Source of the DNA: Ectocarpus siliculosus
Taxonomy: Eukaryota > Sar > Phaeophyceae > Ectocarpales > Ectocarpaceae
DNA length: 28,300 bases
Reading direction: 5' to 3'
Assembly: GCA_000310025.1 (NCBI GenBank)
Contig: FN649751.1
Location: forward strand, 6,332,944-6,361,243
The notes below the pieces were generated by a model. It was not told the origin of the DNA, searched no databases, and saw only the letters and a list, made by a program, of their open reading frames with translations. Position numbers and translations under genes: made by a program. This document shows positions 2,984-17,986 of the stretch, in pieces (position 1 is the stretch's first letter; every line of letters begins with the position of its first letter).

Positions 2984-3303
2984 TGAAAGGTAAACTACGC
3001 GGGGTGCAGCAAGCACGTTCTGGACGTTACTTGGAGCACTGGGTAGGCGGCCGTGTTAGGCCGAGAGAGAGAGATTGAGAGAGAGTTGGAGAGAGAGTGG
3101 GAGAAGGAAACTTGATTGGAGAGAGACGGTGGTGGTGGTGGAGAGAGAGAGGAAGAGAGCTGCACGCACGCAAGCCTCATCACATCCGCCACGCCAAAAG
3201 GGTCCCCGTGACTGCACCGGTGGTACCCCACAACACACGAAATTCCCAACACGTATCCCCCTGGGATCCTCACGACCAGATACTGCTGCGAGTATATCTA
3301 ACA
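2984..3303 (-). repeat. 3' LTR of copia copy L (320 bp)
   Basis: The plus-strand reading starts TGAAAGGTAAAC and ends TATATCTAACA. It contains a GA-rich (CT-rich in element sense) low-complexity block at about 3061-3160. It pairs with the LTR at 9723-10044, with very few differences. Confidence 0.95.
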
Positions 3304-3879: not shown

Positions 3880-4944
3880 CGTTCTGGAAAACCAAGACAC
3901 GGCGCCTCCTCCACACGTCACGATCCCTCCTGATACTGACCTACGGTCTTCTGCCTTGCTTGCAAAGTCCGCATCAGCGTACCCCTGCAAGCTGAATCCT
4001 TCTACTGTACCTCTCTGAAACGAAATACCAAAGTGACTCGTCCTCCTCGCATAGCCTAAAATATCCATCGCTGCATTCCATTGCACCAGCTTCGGAGATG
4101 CGCAATACCTAGCTACTGCCCTTACAGCATTCGCAATGTCTTGCCTAGTTTGAGTCGCCAGCCACATCAACGATCCTACCAGCTCACGAAACGGAAAGTC
4201 TGTCGCCATCTCATCCGCATCAAAATCAGAAAGCTTCACTCCCGAAGACATCGGAACGCTCTTACCCCCGACTACTCCATACTCTGCTGCTAGCTCATCC
4301 GTGAAAGTCTGCTGAGAAATTCTCAACCTACCAGTATCCTTGTTCCTCTCGTAAAAGCAGCCAGAATACCATCTCAACTCTCCCAGGTTCTTCACCGGCA
4401 CAGACTTGTTGAGGTCAGCGGCAAACTTGTCCCATCTCTCCCTCTCTCCGACAGCAAAAATATCATCTACATGTACTACCAAGATCAACACAACACACCC
4501 ATCCTCAATCAATCGAAACACACAAGCATCGGCCAAACACTGCTCAAATCCCAATGCTATCAAACACCTCTTTAGCATTGCATGCCACTGCCTAGATGCC
4601 TGCCTCAAGCCATACAGACTCTTGCCTAGTTCTACAATCATTCCAGATAGAGCTCCACATCCCTGCGGTAGGCGCATGTACACGTCTTCCTCCAACTCCG
4701 AACGCACAAAAGCTTGCTCAATATCGAAATGACACAGGTCGAGGTTCAACTCGCACGCCAACGCAGCCAACATCCTAACACACGAAACAGAAACGGTAGG
4801 CGCGTACAGCTCTCCAAAGTCAATGTACTCTCTCTGCATATCACCTCTCGCTACAAGTTTCGACTTCACCTTAGTGGGCCATCCAAACTCATCTGCCTTC
4901 CAATCGAATACCCACTTAGCGTTAATTGCATTCTCCACTAATTG
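3826..4944 (-). pseudogene. Reverse transcriptase and RNase H N-terminus of copia copy L
   Basis: The frame runs from the codon after the UAG at 4945-4947 into the frameshift near 3878, then on to a stop at 3826. It shows the copia RT series: KWVFDWK, KLVARGDMQREYIDFGELYAPTVS, the catalytic Asp in CHFDIEQAF, SLYGLRQASRQWH and the VDD catalytic pair in VHVDDIFAVG. The RNase H start YADADFAS follows. The KLVARG motif is the standard form, unlike RPVARG in copy R. No ATG precedes the first conserved blocks; the first in-frame initiator-like codon is GTG, so expression would need readthrough of the UAG. Confidence 0.92.
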
Positions 4945-4947
4945 CTA
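4939..4947 (-). promoter_or_regulatory. Leaky stop context UAG CAA UUA in copia copy L
   Basis: On the minus strand the integrase-side frame ends in TAG (4947-4945), followed at once by CAA TTA and then RT sequence in the same frame. UAG CAA UUA is the well-known tobacco mosaic virus readthrough context, and CARYYA is the general consensus. The homologous site in copy R is UAG CAA CUA. Readthrough itself is inferred. Confidence 0.75.
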
Positions 4948-9722: not shown

Positions 9723-10044
9723 TGAAAGGTAAACTACGCGGGGTGCAGCAAGCACGTTCTGGACGTTACTTGGAGCACTGGGTAGGCGGCCGTGTTAGGC
9801 CGAGAGAGAGAGGTTGAGAGAGAGTTGGAGAGAGAGAGTGCGAGAAAGAAACTTGATTGGAGAGAGACGGTGGTGGTGGTGGAGAGAGAGAGGAAGAGAG
9901 CTGCACGCACGCAAGCCTCATCACATCCGCCACGCCAAAAGGGTCCCCGTGACTGCACCGGTGGTACCCCACAACACACGAAATTCCCAACACGTATCCC
10001 CCTGGGATCCTCACGACCAGATACTGCTGCGAGTATATCTAACA
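9723..10044 (-). repeat. 5' LTR of copia copy L (322 bp)
   Basis: In element sense it runs TGTTAGATATAC...CCTTTCA. Relative to the 3' LTR at 2984-3303, by eye it differs at three bases, plus a 2-bp change in a GA run. It should contain the promoter. No clear TATA box is visible; the CT-rich block with CCAATCA is the most likely control region. Confidence 0.95.
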
Positions 10045-10872: not shown

Positions 10873-11199
10873 TGTTAGATATACTCGCAGCAGTATCTGG
10901 TCGTGAGGATCCCAGGGGGATACGTGTTGGGAATTTCGTGTGTTGTGGGGTACCATCGGTGCGGTCACGGGGACCCTTTTGGCGTGGTTGGTGCGATGAA
11001 GCTTGCGTGCGTGCTGCGCTCACTTCTTCCTCTCTCTCTCCACCACCACCACCGTCTCTCTCCAATCAAGTTTCCTTCTCGCACTCTCTCTCCAACTCTC
11101 TCTCAATCTCTCTCTCTCTCGGCCTAACACGGCCGACTACCCAGTGCCCCAAGTGACGTCCAGAACGTGCTTGCTGCACCCCGCGTAGTTTACCTTTCA
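10873..11199 (+). repeat. 5' LTR of copia copy R (327 bp)
   Basis: It runs TGTTAGATATACTC...GTTTACCTTTCA. It contains CCACCACCACCACC, a CCAATCA block at 11052 and a long CT-rich tract to about 11120. No clear TATA box is seen. It pairs with 17662-17986. Confidence 0.95.
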
Positions 11200-11294: not shown

Positions 11295-14200
11295 ATGGAG
11301 GACATCGACCTCTCCGCCCTCAGCGGGGAAGAGCTACAACAAAAAGTGGAGGAGATCGTCCAGCAACGAGTGCAAGCCGAACTCGAAGCCAACAGGATCA
11401 ACGAGGGTGAAGTCACCATTGCCCAACCACCAGCCGGCACCCCAGCCACTCCAACCGGCAACCCAGTCCCACCTACTGGCAACCAACCATCACCCTCCAG
11501 CCAGGGTACACCAGCCACATTCAACGACCCCAGCAGCGTCGCACACATCGTGGCGCAAGCGGCCAAGGCGACAGCTGAGGCCATCGCTCAACAACAGGGC
11601 TTTGCCCGCTCAGGCACGTTACGTGTCAATCCAGGCTCAGAAATCGAACCTTGGCTTGGTAGTGTAAAGAAGGAGCAGGACTTGTACATTATGTTTGATA
11701 TTTTTCGTGGTAAGATGATTTCATATTTTCAGGAGGAGGGTGTGCATGATGCGTTGGAACTGGAGGTCGAGGTCAAGGTCGGGAAGAGGGGTGTGAATGT
11801 AGGAGACCTTCGGAGACTTTTTGGAAATGAAGTGGTAGACAAGTATTTCAAACTGTGGAATATCCTCATCAGCAAGGTTATGTATCCCCCGATTCAGAGC
11901 TTGATTCTGGCGTGTGAGAGTCCCCAAAAGGGCTGGAAAATAGTGACCGAGTTCTATCAGGAGAAAAAGCAGTCAGAAAAGTCGAGGTTGGAGCAGGACT
12001 GGAAGGAGTTGGAGATGAAAGAGTCCGAGAGTCCACAGGATTACATTGCCCGCTCAGAGGCCCTTCGCCTGCGTCTCGCATCTGTAGGCACGATTAAGGA
12101 TGAAACAGATGCCAACAAAGACATTGCTCGTGGCCTTCCCTCTTCGTTGTATGCCGTGCAAAAAGGAATACTGCTTGCCCATGATGTCCGGACGTTGCGT
12201 ACCCTTGAGACTGTGGTGAGGGACGCCCACGTGGAGGTGGAGCGCGAGAGGAGCAAGGGGGAGAGGCGCGAGGTGGAGCTCGCTCTCGCCGCATCCGGCA
12301 TGGGCCGGCGCGGCGGGGGCAGTGGGGGGGCATCCTGGGGTCAAGACGGCGGTCAGGCAGCAGCTGGCGGCCAAAATCGTGACGGCGAGAAGAAAAATAG
12401 TGACGTGTTCAACGACGACCCCGGCGGATTTTGCCGCTACCACCAGTCCGAGCTTCACACCAACGAGCAGTGTCGTCTCCAGCAGCAACTGCGGCGTGCG
12501 CGTTCGAGAGAGGGCGCCGAGGAACGTCGCTCGGGCGGCGGCAGCCGCGGTGGCGGCGGTAGCCAGCGAGGGGGTAGACCGCCGCCGGGACCCGGCCGCG
12601 GTGGCGGGCGATGGGTGAGGATAGAGCAGCAGCACCACACCGGTCATGGTGGCGGTGGCTGGAGCCAAGCCTCACCCCCCCCGCGACCTCTTCGTGGACG
12701 TGGGCCTGGTGGTCGTCTGGGGCGTCACCCGGGGGGTCGTGGGCCCGCGGGACGCCACAGCAGCGACGGGCGTGCCGAGAGAGATCGGGCAGGGAGAGGC
12801 CCGGGGCACGCGCGTTCTGGCCACGGAAGAGAGCAGGCGTACGTTGTGTACTACGCCCACGATGATGGTGGCAACTACGAAGATTACGGCGACTACGACG
12901 AAGGCTACTCCTACGACAACGGCTACCACGACGCCGGGTACGCCCACTACGCCGGCGGCGGGGACAGCTACAGCTACTCCTCCGGGTGCGAAGACAGCCG
13001 TTCATCTGACGGCGGGATCCACTACGTCTACTACCCTCCCGCCGGTCAAGATTCATCATCCGAGCAGCCACGTCAGCCCCCCCCCGCGGGCAGCAGCAGC
13101 ACCGCTTCCTCCTCGTCTTCTGCCCCTTCTCCTGGCGCGCCTCCATCTTCGGGCTACCTCCACCTCTGCACGGCACAATCGGTGCCCCTAGGCAAGTCTC
13201 ACCCCGAAGATTTTTTTGGTAGGATAGGAGTGACGATTGGAGTTGAGTCTGCTGCGCCTGCTTCGTCTTTGCTGAGTGTGGAATCTAGTGAGGGGCCGCC
13301 TGGTAGCGAGAGATGGGTAGCTGATTCAGGTGCAAGCAACAGTTTTACCAACAGTAGCCTACACATGTACGATCTGCAGGAGATCCCCGCAAATAGGAAG
13401 TATGTCGTCGTAGGTGATGGTCGACTGCTAGAAGTGCAAGCTATCGGTAGCATCAACCTTAGTTTCTTTCAGGAGGATGAGAACGGTGAAAAAACGACGA
13501 TGTGTGTTAAGCTGACTGACGTGTCTGTAGTAGAGAACCTGAGCTTCAATTTGTTTTCAACGCATGCAGTTTCTCGAAAGCAACAAATCCTGCACGACGA
13601 GCGTGGTGCAACCCTCCAAAATGGACTGCTATTTGCTAGGGAGGAAAAAGCGTCTGCAGCATATGCCATGCGGTTACCATACGACCCATCTGCGACTATA
13701 GTAGACTCTTCTGCTTTGCCTGCATTCGTGACTGCCCCCGATTCCGCCCCCGCCGTTGGCTCCACGCGTTCCCCTTCCCAAAAAGGGGGCTCCGCGGAAT
13801 CATTGGTGTCCGTGTTGCGTTTCCCTCCCGCTGGCTCTGCTAGCGTAGTACCTTCGAGTGAGAGCGTCACGCCCGCTGGTCCCACCAGCGTAGTACCTTC
13901 GACTCATAGCGTCACGCCCACTGGTCCCACCAGTGTAGTACCTGCGAGTGAGAGCGTCCCGCCCGCCGGCTCTGCCGGCGTAGTACCTTCTTCGGCGTCC
14001 GAGTTTGTTTGTGTGGGTACTTTTCCGGGTATGGATCTTGGAGATACGAGTGTGCTCACCGACGAGCAGCTCATGGATGGCTATGATGACACCCCGTATC
14101 AAGAGTTTTTCCCCGCGTTTATCCCTGAGACTGATGCTGCGAATGTAGCTGCTGTTTTGGATAGCATTGATGGGGGTGCTGATTTTGACTTGGGTGCGGC

Positions 14201-15986
14201 CGCGCTTGGCCCTGGTGCGTCCCCGTTTGCTCTTGGTTCGACTGAAAAGTCCGTTGACATCAACCGCTTCCACCGCTCCCTTGCCCACGCTTGCGAGCCC
14301 CTTTTGAGAGAAACCGCCCAGCAGAGAGGCATCGTGCTCACCGGCAAGCTGGAACCGTGCACGGACTGCATGAAGGCGAAGGGCAGGCGAGGGTCGGTGC
14401 CGCGGGGGCCGGGAGCGCGGGCGTCCAAGCCACTCGGGCGTGTTCACCTGGACTTGTGTGGACCGCTGGTGCCTTCCCTGGGCGGCAACCTCTACCTGTT
14501 CGTCGCCGTCGACAGCGCCTCGCGGTGGAACAAGGTCTACGGTCTCCGGCGGAAGTCCGACGCGCTGGCGGCAACGAAAAGGCTGCTGGCGGACGTGGGG
14601 CGGTACGACCTCGGGCGCATCGAGTGTTTCCGCGTCGACAACGGCACCGAGTGGACCCGTGGCGACTTCCGGCAATTCTGCGACGACAACGGCATCGGCG
14701 TCGAGTTCACCCCGCCTGGCACTCCGAAGTACAACGGCGTCGTGGAGAGCGCCATCTGGCGGATTATGAAGGCCGGCATGGCCGCCCGCCGCAGCGCTGG
14801 CCGTGTGTTCAACGTCGACTTCGCCTCCTTCCCCGGCCTCGACGAGCGCGGTGACCGTCTTTGGATGGAATCGGCGAAGTGGGCCGCCGACGCTCTTAAC
14901 CAGTCGGCGACCAAGGCCAACCCCGGGCGGCGCTCGCCGCACGAGATGTTCACCGGCGAGCAAGGGCCGTTCCGCGTGCTGCCGTTCTTCCAGCCCGGCT
15001 TCATGCGCGAGGATCGCCGCACCAAGCTCGACGACCAGGCCACCCTCTGCTTCTACCTGAACGGCGGCGACAACCACCCGAGCGGCACCGTCAAGGTCCT
15101 CAAGGCGTCCACCGGTCGCGTCGTCTACACCAACAACGTGTCGTGGGTGACGTCGGCGCCAGCCGGCGAGGGGGGTTCCGCTGGTGTCGCCGCTGCACCG
15201 ACACCCCCCCCGTTCACGCCGCCGGTCGTCTCGATCAACTTTGGCCCAGCACCGACGCCTTCGACTGCCGCAACGCCACCTGCCGCAACGCCGCCGCCAG
15301 CGACCACGCCGTCGTCCGGTTCCACGCCTTCACAGCCGCCCTCTGCCACTTCGCCGCCACCGTCGGCGACCCCCGCCCCTGGCCAGCCGTCTTCTGCCTC
15401 TTCGCCGTCACCGTTGGCGACCCTCGATCCAGACCAGTCGCCGCCGCCGGACCCCGCGATGCCCCCGCTTACGGCTCACGCCATGCGGCAGCTTCGCCCG
15501 GGTACAAAGGCCGAGGGTATGATAGACCCGCAGCTGCCAAGCCGTACGAGATCGGGCACGAGGCACAGCACAGGACTCATCTCGATGCTAGACAAGAACA
15601 CTCTGGTGTCGATGCTGGAGGCTCGGAGCGCGGTGGATGAGGAGCGCAGGGAGCTGGGGGGGGCGGAGGCCGGAGAGCAGGGGGGAACGGGGGCCGGAGA
15701 ACAGGCGGGAGCACTCGCAGCGGTGGACCCGGGGGCTGGAGGAGCGGGCTTTCCACTCGCATTTGCCACGCTCCTCGCCAACCGGGAAGACATCGACGCC
15801 ACGCTGCGAGACCAGCGCCCGCCGGAGCAACGCCCTGACCTTCCGCACTGCCAGGCCAGCGACCTTCGTGTCCCCAAGAGCTACAAAGAGGCCATGGCGT
15901 CGGAGCACCGGCACCTTTGGAGCGACTCTATGCAAAGGGAGTTTTACGGCTTGTTGGAAGCGGGGACTTTTACTCCGGCGAAGTAG
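11295..15986 (+). CDS. Gag-protease-integrase polyprotein of copia copy R (1563 aa, ends at a leaky UAG)
   Basis: The start ATG has a good context (CATCATGG) and gives MEDIDLSALSGEEL. Order: a capsid-like domain at about residues 118-330 (LYIMFDIFRGKM ... SPQDYIARSEALR), a C380-x2-H383-x4-H388-x4-C393 knuckle, RGG/Gly-rich 414-440 and a Tyr/Asp/Gly-rich stretch at about 515-565. The protease has D677 in WVADSGAS. The 45-bp repeats follow, then the integrase zinc finger H993...C1022-x2-C1025 and the DD35E core D1053, D1115, E1151. A Pro/Ser/Thr-rich linker occupies about 1285-1395. The frame ends at TAG 15984-15986 just inside the start of the RT region. No frameshift or stop separates gag from protease, unlike Ty1. 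In the cell the product would form particles, mature itself and integrate cDNA. Confidence 0.95.
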   Translation: MEDIDLSALSGEELQQKVEEIVQQRVQAELEANRINEGEVTIAQPPAGTPATPTGNPVPPTGNQPSPSSQGTPATFNDPSSVAHIVAQAAKATAEAIAQQQGFARSGTLRVNPGSEIEPWLGSVKKEQDLYIMFDIFRGKMISYFQEEGVHDALELEVEVKVGKRGVNVGDLRRLFGNEVVDKYFKLWNILISKVMYPPIQSLILACESPQKGWKIVTEFYQEKKQSEKSRLEQDWKELEMKESESPQDYIARSEALRLRLASVGTIKDETDANKDIARGLPSSLYAVQKGILLAHDVRTLRTLETVVRDAHVEVERERSKGERREVELALAASGMGRRGGGSGGASWGQDGGQAAAGGQNRDGEKKNSDVFNDDPGGFCRYHQSELHTNEQCRLQQQLRRARSREGAEERRSGGGSRGGGGSQRGGRPPPGPGRGGGRWVRIEQQHHTGHGGGGWSQASPPPRPLRGRGPGGRLGRHPGGRGPAGRHSSDGRAERDRAGRGPGHARSGHGREQAYVVYYAHDDGGNYEDYGDYDEGYSYDNGYHDAGYAHYAGGGDSYSYSSGCEDSRSSDGGIHYVYYPPAGQDSSSEQPRQPPPAGSSSTASSSSSAPSPGAPPSSGYLHLCTAQSVPLGKSHPEDFFGRIGVTIGVESAAPASSLLSVESSEGPPGSERWVADSGASNSFTNSSLHMYDLQEIPANRKYVVVGDGRLLEVQAIGSINLSFFQEDENGEKTTMCVKLTDVSVVENLSFNLFSTHAVSRKQQILHDERGATLQNGLLFAREEKASAAYAMRLPYDPSATIVDSSALPAFVTAPDSAPAVGSTRSPSQKGGSAESLVSVLRFPPAGSASVVPSSESVTPAGPTSVVPSTHSVTPTGPTSVVPASESVPPAGSAGVVPSSASEFVCVGTFPGMDLGDTSVLTDEQLMDGYDDTPYQEFFPAFIPETDAANVAAVLDSIDGGADFDLGAAALGPGASPFALGSTEKSVDINRFHRSLAHACEPLLRETAQQRGIVLTGKLEPCTDCMKAKGRRGSVPRGPGARASKPLGRVHLDLCGPLVPSLGGNLYLFVAVDSASRWNKVYGLRRKSDALAATKRLLADVGRYDLGRIECFRVDNGTEWTRGDFRQFCDDNGIGVEFTPPGTPKYNGVVESAIWRIMKAGMAARRSAGRVFNVDFASFPGLDERGDRLWMESAKWAADALNQSATKANPGRRSPHEMFTGEQGPFRVLPFFQPGFMREDRRTKLDDQATLCFYLNGGDNHPSGTVKVLKASTGRVVYTNNVSWVTSAPAGEGGSAGVAAAPTPPPFTPPVVSINFGPAPTPSTAATPPAATPPPATTPSSGSTPSQPPSATSPPPSATPAPGQPSSASSPSPLATLDPDQSPPPDPAMPPLTAHAMRQLRPGTKAEGMIDPQLPSRTRSGTRHSTGLISMLDKNTLVSMLEARSAVDEERRELGGAEAGEQGGTGAGEQAGALAAVDPGAGGAGFPLAFATLLANREDIDATLRDQRPPEQRPDLPHCQASDLRVPKSYKEAMASEHRHLWSDSMQREFYGLLEAGTFTPAK
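13833..13991 (+). repeat. 45-bp tandem repeats between protease and integrase, copy R
   Basis: Three full and one partial imperfect 45-bp units encode a Ser/Thr/Pro/Val-rich 15-residue repeat. The array keeps the frame and sits in the linker between protease and the integrase zinc finger, a region free to vary in length. Confidence 0.9.
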
Positions 15987-15992
15987 CAACTA
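15984..15992 (+). promoter_or_regulatory. Leaky stop context UAG CAA CUA in copia copy R
   Basis: TAG at 15984-15986 is followed by CAA CTA, matching the CARYYA readthrough consensus. The frame continues directly into RT (Q-L-V-E-N-A-I-N-A-K-W). The downstream part has no in-frame ATG before conserved RT residues. Copy L keeps the UAG with CAA TTA. Functional readthrough is inferred from this conservation and from the known behaviour of the motif in tobacco mosaic virus and in the SIRE1 retroelement. Confidence 0.8.
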
Positions 15993-17408
15993 GTGGAGAA
16001 CGCAATTAACGCTAAGTGGATATTCGATTGGAAGGCAGATGAGTTTGGATGGCCCACTAAGGTGAAGTCGAGACCTGTAGCGAGAGGTGATATGCAGAGA
16101 GAGTACATTGACTTTGGAGAGCTGTACGCGCCTACCGTTTCTGTTTCGTGTGTTAGGATGTTGGCTGCGTTGGCGTGCGAGTTAAATCTCGACCTGTGTC
16201 ATTTCGATATTGAGCAAGCTTTTGTGCGCTCGGAGTTGGAGGAAGACGTGTACATGCGTTTGCCACAGGGATGTGGAGCTCTATCTGGAATGATTGTAAA
16301 ACTAGGCAAGAGTCTGTATGGCTTGAGACAGGCATCTAGGCAGTGGCATGCAATGCTGAAGAGGTGTTTAGTGGCGTTAGGTTTTGAGCAGTGCATGGCC
16401 GATGCTTGTGTGTTTCGTTTGATTGAGGATGGATGTGTTGTTTTGATTTTGGTAGTACATGTAGATGATATTTTTGCTGTGGGAGAGAGGGAGAGATGTG
16501 ACAAGTTTGGCGCCGACCTTAACAAGTCCGTGCCAGGGAAGAACCTGGGAGAGTTGAGATGGTATTCTGGGTGCTTTTACGAGAGGAACAAGGAGACCGG
16601 AAGGTTGACGATTTCTCAGCAGACTTTCACGGACGAGCTAGCAGCAGAATATGGAGTAGTGGGAGGTAAGAGCGTTCCGATGTCTTCGGGGGTCAAGCTT
16701 TCTGATTTTGATGCGGATGAGGTGGCGACAGACTTTCCGTTTCGTGAGCTGGTAGGATCGTTGATGTGGCTGGCGACTCAAACTAGGCCAGACATTGCGA
16801 ATGCTGTAAGGGCAGCAGCTAGGTATTGCGCATCTCCGAAGCTGGTACACTGGAACGCAGCGATGGATATTTTAGGCTATGCGAGGAGGACGAGTCACTT
16901 TGGTATTTCGTTTCAGAGGGGTACAGTAGAAGGATTCAGCTTGCAGGGGTACGCTGATGCGGACTTTGCAAGCAAGGCAGCAGACCGTAGGTCGGTATCA
17001 GGGGGAATCGTGACGTGTGGAGGAGGCGCTGTGTCTTGGTTTTCCAGAACGCAAAAGTGCGTCACGCTTTCGACGACAGAAGCAGAGTACGTCGCACTTG
17101 GTGACATAGTGAAGGAGATTTTGTTTTTGAGGCAGATTTGGCGTTTCATGTTGCCGCAGGTCGGCATGCCGTGCATCCCCGTCTTCGAGGACAACCAGGG
17201 GGCGATTCAACTAGCGCAGAACCCCATCTCAAACTCGAACTCGAAGCACATAGATGTAAGGCACCATTTTCTCAGGGAACTGGTAGAGAGGAAGGAAATT
17301 TCGGTGATCCACGTGCCGTCTCCGTACCAGCGTGCAGACTTTCTCACGAAGAGCTTGCCGAAGGACGCTTTCGAGTCTCACCGTGATTTTGCAATGAATT
17401 TGGCATGA
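15987..17408 (+). CDS. Reverse transcriptase-RNase H part of Pol, copia copy R (readthrough product)
   Basis: The frame is in phase with the upstream polyprotein and ends at TGA 17406-17408. A GTG at 15993 is the first initiator-like codon, but readthrough from the UAG is the simpler reading. Residues counted from 15993: RT catalytic Asp72 (CHFDIEQAF) and the pair D158-D159 in VHVDDIFAVG, with SLYGLRQASRQWH between. RNase H starts at YADADFAS (D322), followed by STTEAEYVAL, EDNQGAIQLAQNP, KHIDVRHHF and ADFLTKSLP. This would be the complete RVT_2 plus copia RNase H set. It makes and finishes the element's cDNA. Oddity: it reads RPVARG where copy L and the family have K/R-L-V-A-R-G. That Leu-to-Pro change may weaken the enzyme. 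Confidence 0.95.
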   Translation, partial: QLVENAINAKWIFDWKADEFGWPTKVKSRPVARGDMQREYIDFGELYAPTVSVSCVRMLAALACELNLDLCHFDIEQAFVRSELEEDVYMRLPQGCGALSGMIVKLGKSLYGLRQASRQWHAMLKRCLVALGFEQCMADACVFRLIEDGCVVLILVVHVDDIFAVGERERCDKFGADLNKSVPGKNLGELRWYSGCFYERNKETGRLTISQQTFTDELAAEYGVVGGKSVPMSSGVKLSDFDADEVATDFPFRELVGSLMWLATQTRPDIANAVRAAARYCASPKLVHWNAAMDILGYARRTSHFGISFQRGTVEGFSLQGYADADFASKAADRRSVSGGIVTCGGGAVSWFSRTQKCVTLSTTEAEYVALGDIVKEILFLRQIWRFMLPQVGMPCIPVFEDNQGAIQLAQNPISNSNSKHIDVRHHFLRELVERKEISVIHVPSPYQRADFLTKSLPKDAFESHRDFAMNLA

Positions 17409-17661: not shown

Positions 17662-17986
17662 TGTTAGATATACTCGCAGCAGTATCTGGTCGTGAGGATC
17701 CCAGGGGGATACGTGTTGGGAATTTCGTGTGTTGCAGGGTACCATCGGTGCGGTCACGGGGACCCTTTTGGCGTGGTTGGTGCGATGAAGCTTGCGTGCG
17801 TGCTGCGCTCACTTCTTCCTCTCTCTCTCCACCACCACCACCGTCTCTCTCCAATCAAGTTTCCTTCTCCCACTCTCTCTCCAACTCTCTCTCAATCTCT
17901 CTCTCTCGGCCTAACACGGCCGACTACCCAGTGCCCCAAGTAACGTCCAGAACGTGCTTGCTGCACCCCGCGTAGTTTACCTTTCA
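17662..17986 (+). repeat. 3' LTR of copia copy R (325 bp)
   Basis: It runs TGTTAGATATACTC...CCTTTCA. Against the 5' LTR I see TG to CA (GTTGTGGGG versus GTTGCAGGG), G to C at 17870, a 2-bp shorter CT run and G to A in AAGTAACG. It points towards MYB copy 2 on the same strand, about 2 kb upstream of that gene's TATA box. Confidence 0.95.

Follow-up and report, generated by a model that had tools for sequence, protein, structure and literature searches.

The gag-pol frame of a Ty1/copia retrotransposon of the brown alga Ectocarpus siliculosus is interrupted by a single in-frame UAG, shortly upstream of the reverse transcriptase (RT) and RNase H. The question raised by this locus is whether the UAG is a defect of the copy, a codon that is removed, avoided or read as sense during expression, or a programmed stop that a minority of ribosomes would pass to produce RT.

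Results

Two Copies with the Same In-frame UAG

The window, a stretch of 28,300 nucleotides of contig FN649751.1, contains two copies of one Ty1/copia family arranged head to head, copy R on the forward and copy L on the reverse strand (Table 1). Assignment to Ty1/copia is based on the LTRs of 320–327 bp and 5-bp target duplications of the two copies and, in copy R, on the Pfam domains Retrotran_gag_2, Pol_BBD and rve followed by RVT_2, integrase being 5' of RT. We take a DSGA motif in the Gag-protease-integrase frame of copy R to mark the protease, and its RNase H, which has no Pfam match, is presumed from its position. The two LTRs are 98.2% identical in copy R and 98.5% identical in copy L, and the closest named relatives of the copia proteins in the window are from Ectocarpus sp. 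CCAP 1310/34. Gag contains a variant zinc knuckle, C-x2-H-x4-H-x4-C (CRYHQSELHTNEQC, window 12432–12473), the usual form being CCHC. Outside both copies, two pairs of direct repeats (1665–1896/24238–24469 and 674–819/23204–23349) are 79% and 93% alike, with the members of each pair ~22.5 kb apart.

Table 1. Coordinates in the window of the features of the two copia copies
Feature	Position	Strand	Details
5' LTR, copy R	10873..11199	+	target duplication CCTTT
3' LTR, copy R	17662..17986	+	
5' LTR, copy L	9723..10044	-	target duplication CAGCT
3' LTR, copy L	2984..3303	-	
Gag-protease-integrase frame, copy R	11295..15983	+	1563 codons; Pfam Retrotran_gag_2, Pol_BBD, rve
In-frame UAG, proposed readthrough stop, copy R	15984..15986	+	
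CAACTA, 3' context of copy R stop, CARYYA type	15987..15992	+	
RT-RNase H frame, copy R	15987..17408	+	473 codons + TGA (17406–17408); Pfam RVT_2
UAG, copy L	4945..4947	-	
CAATTA, 3' context of copy L stop (tobamovirus hexamer)	4939..4944	-	

Read from its ATG, the copy R frame has 2038 codons, with TAG as codon 1564 and TGA as the last; the 2037 codons before the TGA thus comprise 1563 codons, the UAG and 473 more. An earlier note on this DNA had described the UAG as the sole interruption of the copy R frame, with a fully open RT-RNase H frame after it and with the same UAG, in a slightly different context, in copy L, and had regarded the two copies as independent insertions. All of this is borne out, the last by the different target duplications; in copy L itself, the RT-RNase H frame is broken after 372 codons. 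One uninterrupted pol frame is usual for Ty1/copia, although not strictly defining, and copy R departs from it at codon 1564. The note also placed the stop at the integrase/RT boundary, and this needs adjustment: the stop does follow integrase, but in copy R the RVT_2 match begins immediately after the stop, at profile column 14, and in five family-B copies it extends across the stop from column 8, so that the stop falls within the N-terminal margin of the RT domain and does not lie between domains.

The Stop and Its 3' Context in the Genome

The genome searched comprises 189 Mb in 492 contigs. A first DNA search for copies gave 40 matches, and the same stop was found in more distant families, giving 69 entries that represent 68 distinct insertions (entry L009 being copy R). 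These entries had been picked from the list of RVT_2 matches partly by their 472–473-codon frames, and for this reason two patterns were then run in which the stop and the hexamer after it were unconstrained, only the bases 3' of the hexamer and one loose base before the stop being specified; the patterns were built from families already known and so recover copies of those families. They gave 147 matches, of which 139 have TAG, one TAA and two a sense codon, while two are rearranged or truncated and three are chance matches. One of the chance matches (L132, C13:1557180) was recognized as such on checking and the other two were judged by eye. Two of the 139 TAG matches (L027 and L031) have a small insertion 3' of the hexamer, and 137 have it in place. 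The sense copies have AAG (L131, a family-B copy with a 709-codon frame) and TCG (L134). Excluding the two rearranged and three chance matches, the UAG is therefore kept in 139 of 142 copies, the outcome that the note's proposed alignment of all copies was designed to reveal, and this holds across families in which synonymous sites are saturated (see below).

Among the 137 TAG matches without insertion, the hexamers are CAACCA (55 copies), CAACTA (29), CAACGA (28), CAGCCA (12) and CAATTA (7), with CAGCGA and CAAGCA twice each and CAATCA and CAACGC once each. The first three bases fit CAR in all 137 copies and the final A is present in 136. Position 5 is C in 70, T in 36 and G in 31 copies, and position 4 is G in two. 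The leaky-stop consensus CARYYA suggested in the note is consequently matched in full by 104 of the 137; the fifth base is G in 31 others, and one of these, CAACGC, is also without the final A. Thus, its CAR and its final A stand but its fifth position does not, since families C and E carry CAACGA; the local consensus is CARYNA, with CAACGA or CAGCGA in two families. In a subfamily of B, designated B2 (G000, e.g. L133, C30:1684800–1684834), 28 copies with TAG CAACCA are identical over a stretch of 35 bases, which suggests a recent burst.

It could be proposed that the nuclear code here reads UAG as an amino acid, since the frame continues past it, and 7 of 67 HSP70 stretches, taken with introns ignored, contain TAG. 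However, copy R has only one TAG in its 2037 codons, other copia matches in the genome are open for up to 1852 codons (at most ~1 kb of each of these having been read), and no stop occurs in four of the five strongest HSP70 stretches. A reassigned UAG is hardly credible.

Conservation between Families

The families were compared through one representative each of A to E, with two for A (A and A2), in 14 between-family pairs. The five families have RT identities of 56–79%. Values of dS are 1.9–3.4 in six of the 14 pairs and beyond the range of the formula in the other eight, and fourfold-site identity between families is 0.27–0.43, whereas RT dN is 0.14–0.39. Judged from these substitution patterns, the RT frame 3' of the stop is clearly under purifying selection. 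TAG, CAR and the A at the sixth base are common to families A–E despite the saturation of synonymous sites, and a neutral stop would not survive such saturation; the stop and its context therefore appear to have been kept by selection. The second codon after the stop encodes Leu, Pro or Arg; its last base is A in each of the six representatives, whereas A-ending codons make up only 9–15% of the codons for those amino acids in five of them and 18% in A2. The chance of six A endings would be about 2 in 100,000 if the families were independent, a figure that is overstated because of their shared descent. Set against the expectation of 9–18%, the A endings point to a constraint on the RNA.

Upstream of the stop, the stretch from AGTF (AETF in one family) to the stop is three to seven residues and varies in both length and sequence, as would be expected if the sequence mattered only at the stop and 3' of it. 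Within family A, the conservation of the stop is unremarkable, because 187 of 399 codons never vary.

These comparisons bear on the view that the stop is a defect of a source copy that intact elements complement in trans. In its favor, additional stops are present in copy L and in many other copies. Against it, a neutral stop would have been lost from five families at synonymous saturation and the RT frame 3' of a true terminator would not have stayed under purifying selection; moreover, in 38 family-A copies, a stop at any other compared codon is confined to a single copy. A rescued defect is, in our judgment, extremely unlikely.

Recent Copies

One copy (on contig C10) has LTRs identical at 327 of 327 bases and a target duplication of ATAGA; it carries the TAG, after which 473 codons are open, and the frame before the TAG is open for 547 codons, up to where the piece ends. 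Recent activity of a stop-bearing element is shown by this copy. Among the LTR pairs of 10 further copies, five aligned at 99.4–100% and five did not align. The note had named a sense codon in most recently active copies as an observation that would speak against readthrough. This is not what is found: sense codons occur in two of 142 copies, each of them alone, and TAG is present in the sole copy whose two LTRs were found to be fully identical.

Relatives in Other Genomes

Bacterial and archaeal genomes were scanned for eukaryotic contamination, which yielded 30 relatives, 28 of which reach the site (L164 and L165 do not). One of them, L136, on a contig filed in a Robiginitomaculum metagenome-assembled genome (MAG), is 61% identical and has TAG CAACCA at the site, with 190 open codons upstream to the contig edge and 477 downstream; in the other 27, at 24–44% identity, the frame is open across the site. 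The same MAG holds L137 (JALZUP010000089.1), a member of a sense-codon family that groups with F83 (100/99), so that TAG and sense lineages occur together in another source. Two scans of viral contigs by tblastn found no relative.

In a tree of the rows read from DNA, the eight TAG rows form one clade (100/99) apart from 17 sense rows, with L136 outermost in the TAG clade (90/87) and the sense-codon copia families of the same genome outside it; the branching order of the sense families closest to it has weak support (85/72). This tree was limited to a part of the sense loci, many distant ones being excluded together with L131 and all protein-only rows. When L131 and the proteins P0003, P0089 and P0106 were included (and L136 was not), the tree required three changes instead of one; these three proteins have Q or W at the site, which in a protein record is compatible with either a sense codon or a recoded stop.

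Ten predicted proteins (P0127, P0128, P0129 and P0145–P0151) end at the site or within a few residues of it, and four of these (P0128, P0129, P0147 and P0149) are from outside the Ectocarpus annotation. P0149 and P0005, both on contigs of length 7332, are probably the two halves of one element. Among the best 120 of 3970 RT hits, 99 of the 103 non-NCBI proteins begin 3' of the site, which offers weak support, it being noted that this search admits only proteins of 0.55–1.75 times the query length, so that fused proteins could not appear.

RNA Structure, Splicing, and Internal Initiation

No stable RNA structure was detected 3' of the stop, five 120-nt pieces folding no better than their shuffles (z +0.1 to +1.7); the pieces start at varying distances, up to ~5 bases, from the stop, and the program used does not predict pseudoknots.

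Drosophila copia makes its Gag RNA by splicing, a precedent for the proposal that the UAG is spliced out and that RT is made from the spliced RNA. Four gene models of Ectocarpus sp. CCAP 1310/34 (P0121, P0122, P0123 and P0126) do jump the stop, by one and the same junction, from TPAK to MLAALACEL. In family A, the GT of this junction consists of the base before the stop and the T of the stop itself (AA|GTAG), and its AG precedes RT codon 58. Nevertheless, the AG is present only in A and A2 among the six representatives and is absent in B–E; family C has A instead of G before the stop, and the G is found in 17 of 43 TAG copies from one pattern and is missing in most family-C copies. Use of the junction would also delete the first 57 RT codons, including residues that are invariant in ten relatives (such as Lys27, Arg29 and Val31–Gly34). 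Other gene models (P0124 and P0125) cut elsewhere, and the 330 nt upstream of the stop contain no GT common to the six representatives; four GC dinucleotides in this region are common to them. Splicing, which would in addition leave the conserved CAR..A unexplained, is thus unlikely, and it is probably the stop that led the annotation to place spurious introns over it.

Separate translation of RT, with initiation at an internal site or on a subgenomic RNA, has some precedent in Tca2, in which a promoter in the gag-pol junction drove a downstream reporter in yeast (PMC2194720). In the present families, however, the first in-frame ATG is at codon 36 (A and B) or 119–128 (C, D and E), in the latter case 3' of a conserved HFDxxQAF motif at about codon 74, so that initiation at an ATG in the RT frame would lose essential parts of the protein. 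Furthermore, in the families read, the RT frame continues the upstream one without a shift. We regard separate translation as very unlikely. Because no stable structure, no early ATG and no shared splice sites were found, and because there is a recently active copy with the stop, readthrough is the best explanation of the UAG.

Discussion

The comparisons suggest programmed leakiness of the UAG, as in the tobamovirus (type I) class of stops, a reading to which we assign a probability of roughly 0.87. Under this mechanism, most ribosomes would stop at the UAG and release Gag-protease-integrase, whereas in a minority a near-cognate tRNA, helped by the 3' CAR-Y-N-A, would decode the UAG, and these ribosomes would stay in frame through RT and RNase H to give a Gag-PR-IN-RT-RH extension. 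That readthrough takes place, the level it reaches and the part it plays in setting the ratio of RT to Gag-integrase are inferred from this arrangement, in which Gag-PR-IN would likewise be the abundant product. A single origin of the stop, at the root of one copia clade in brown algae or in a wider group, is probable, and selection would then have kept it.

The type I context is UAG-CAR-YYA, of which the short 3' sequence suffices in tobacco mosaic virus; Providence virus has the hexamer CAACUA and tobamoviruses have CAAUUA (PMC3542737). The copia site resembles this type in its UAG, in having the same hexamers and a replicase-type extension, and in the lack of a stable 3' structure, but it differs in belonging to a chromosomal Ty1/copia element and in the CAACGA of two of the five families. 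In gammaretroviruses, the stop sits at the gag/pol boundary, and RT is likewise made by readthrough of an in-frame UAG. The signal there is UAG-G with a pseudoknot (PMC3542737). In the copia element, by contrast, protease and integrase precede the stop, C follows the UAG and no stable structure was found, so that it does not belong to the gammaretrovirus type.

Stop codons have been encountered in other Ty1/copia elements, and the Candida element Tca2 is of the Ty1/copia type. Its in-frame stop is a UGA between gag and pol, and no readthrough in yeast was obtained with the junction by itself (PMC2194720); it thus differs from the present stop in both codon and place, and it indicates that a stop in a retroelement need not be bypassed by plain readthrough. 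SIRE1, a Sirevirus of the Ty1/copia group, has a leaky stop; it is reported to use suppression of a stop that separates pol from an env-like frame (PMC2829016), so that its stop follows pol and adds an env-like part, whereas the stop described here interrupts pol before RT. In copy R, no frame of at least 150 codons is present between 17408 and the 3' LTR, and the SIRE1 arrangement is therefore not that of this element. Searches of open-access papers returned no report of a stop between integrase and RT or of programmed readthrough in chromosomal elements of this lineage. A recent paper on Ectocarpus transposons lists 35 Copia families, and the words readthrough and stop codon do not occur in its main text (PMC12477816).

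The mechanism is accordingly of a known kind, and the novelty lies in its place, in its persistence throughout a clade and in the CAACGA variant. One whole Ty1/copia clade, found in brown algae and probably present in further marine hosts, may well have moved its expression switch from gag/pol into pol, with UAG-CARYNA gained once and kept. RT-RNase H alone would then be the minor product, Gag, protease and integrase being made in excess over RT, the residue inserted by readthrough would lie in folded RT, and the active context would be wider than CARYYA. If this is correct, these chromosomal elements provide a natural and long-lasting example of programmed readthrough, at an unusual place, in which the dosage of integrase is separated from that of RT, together with a set of hexamers, including CAACGA, that has been tested by evolution. 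It would also account for the gene-model introns that jump the stop in these elements.

Base composition also changes across the stop. In copy R (window 13900–17408), GC3 is 0.78 over the 360 codons upstream and 0.56 downstream, and in the six representatives, it is 0.69–0.76 over the last 150 upstream codons and 0.55–0.63 downstream; when 360 upstream codons are taken, the drop is absent in families D and E. This drop could reflect the level of expression or a modular origin of RT.
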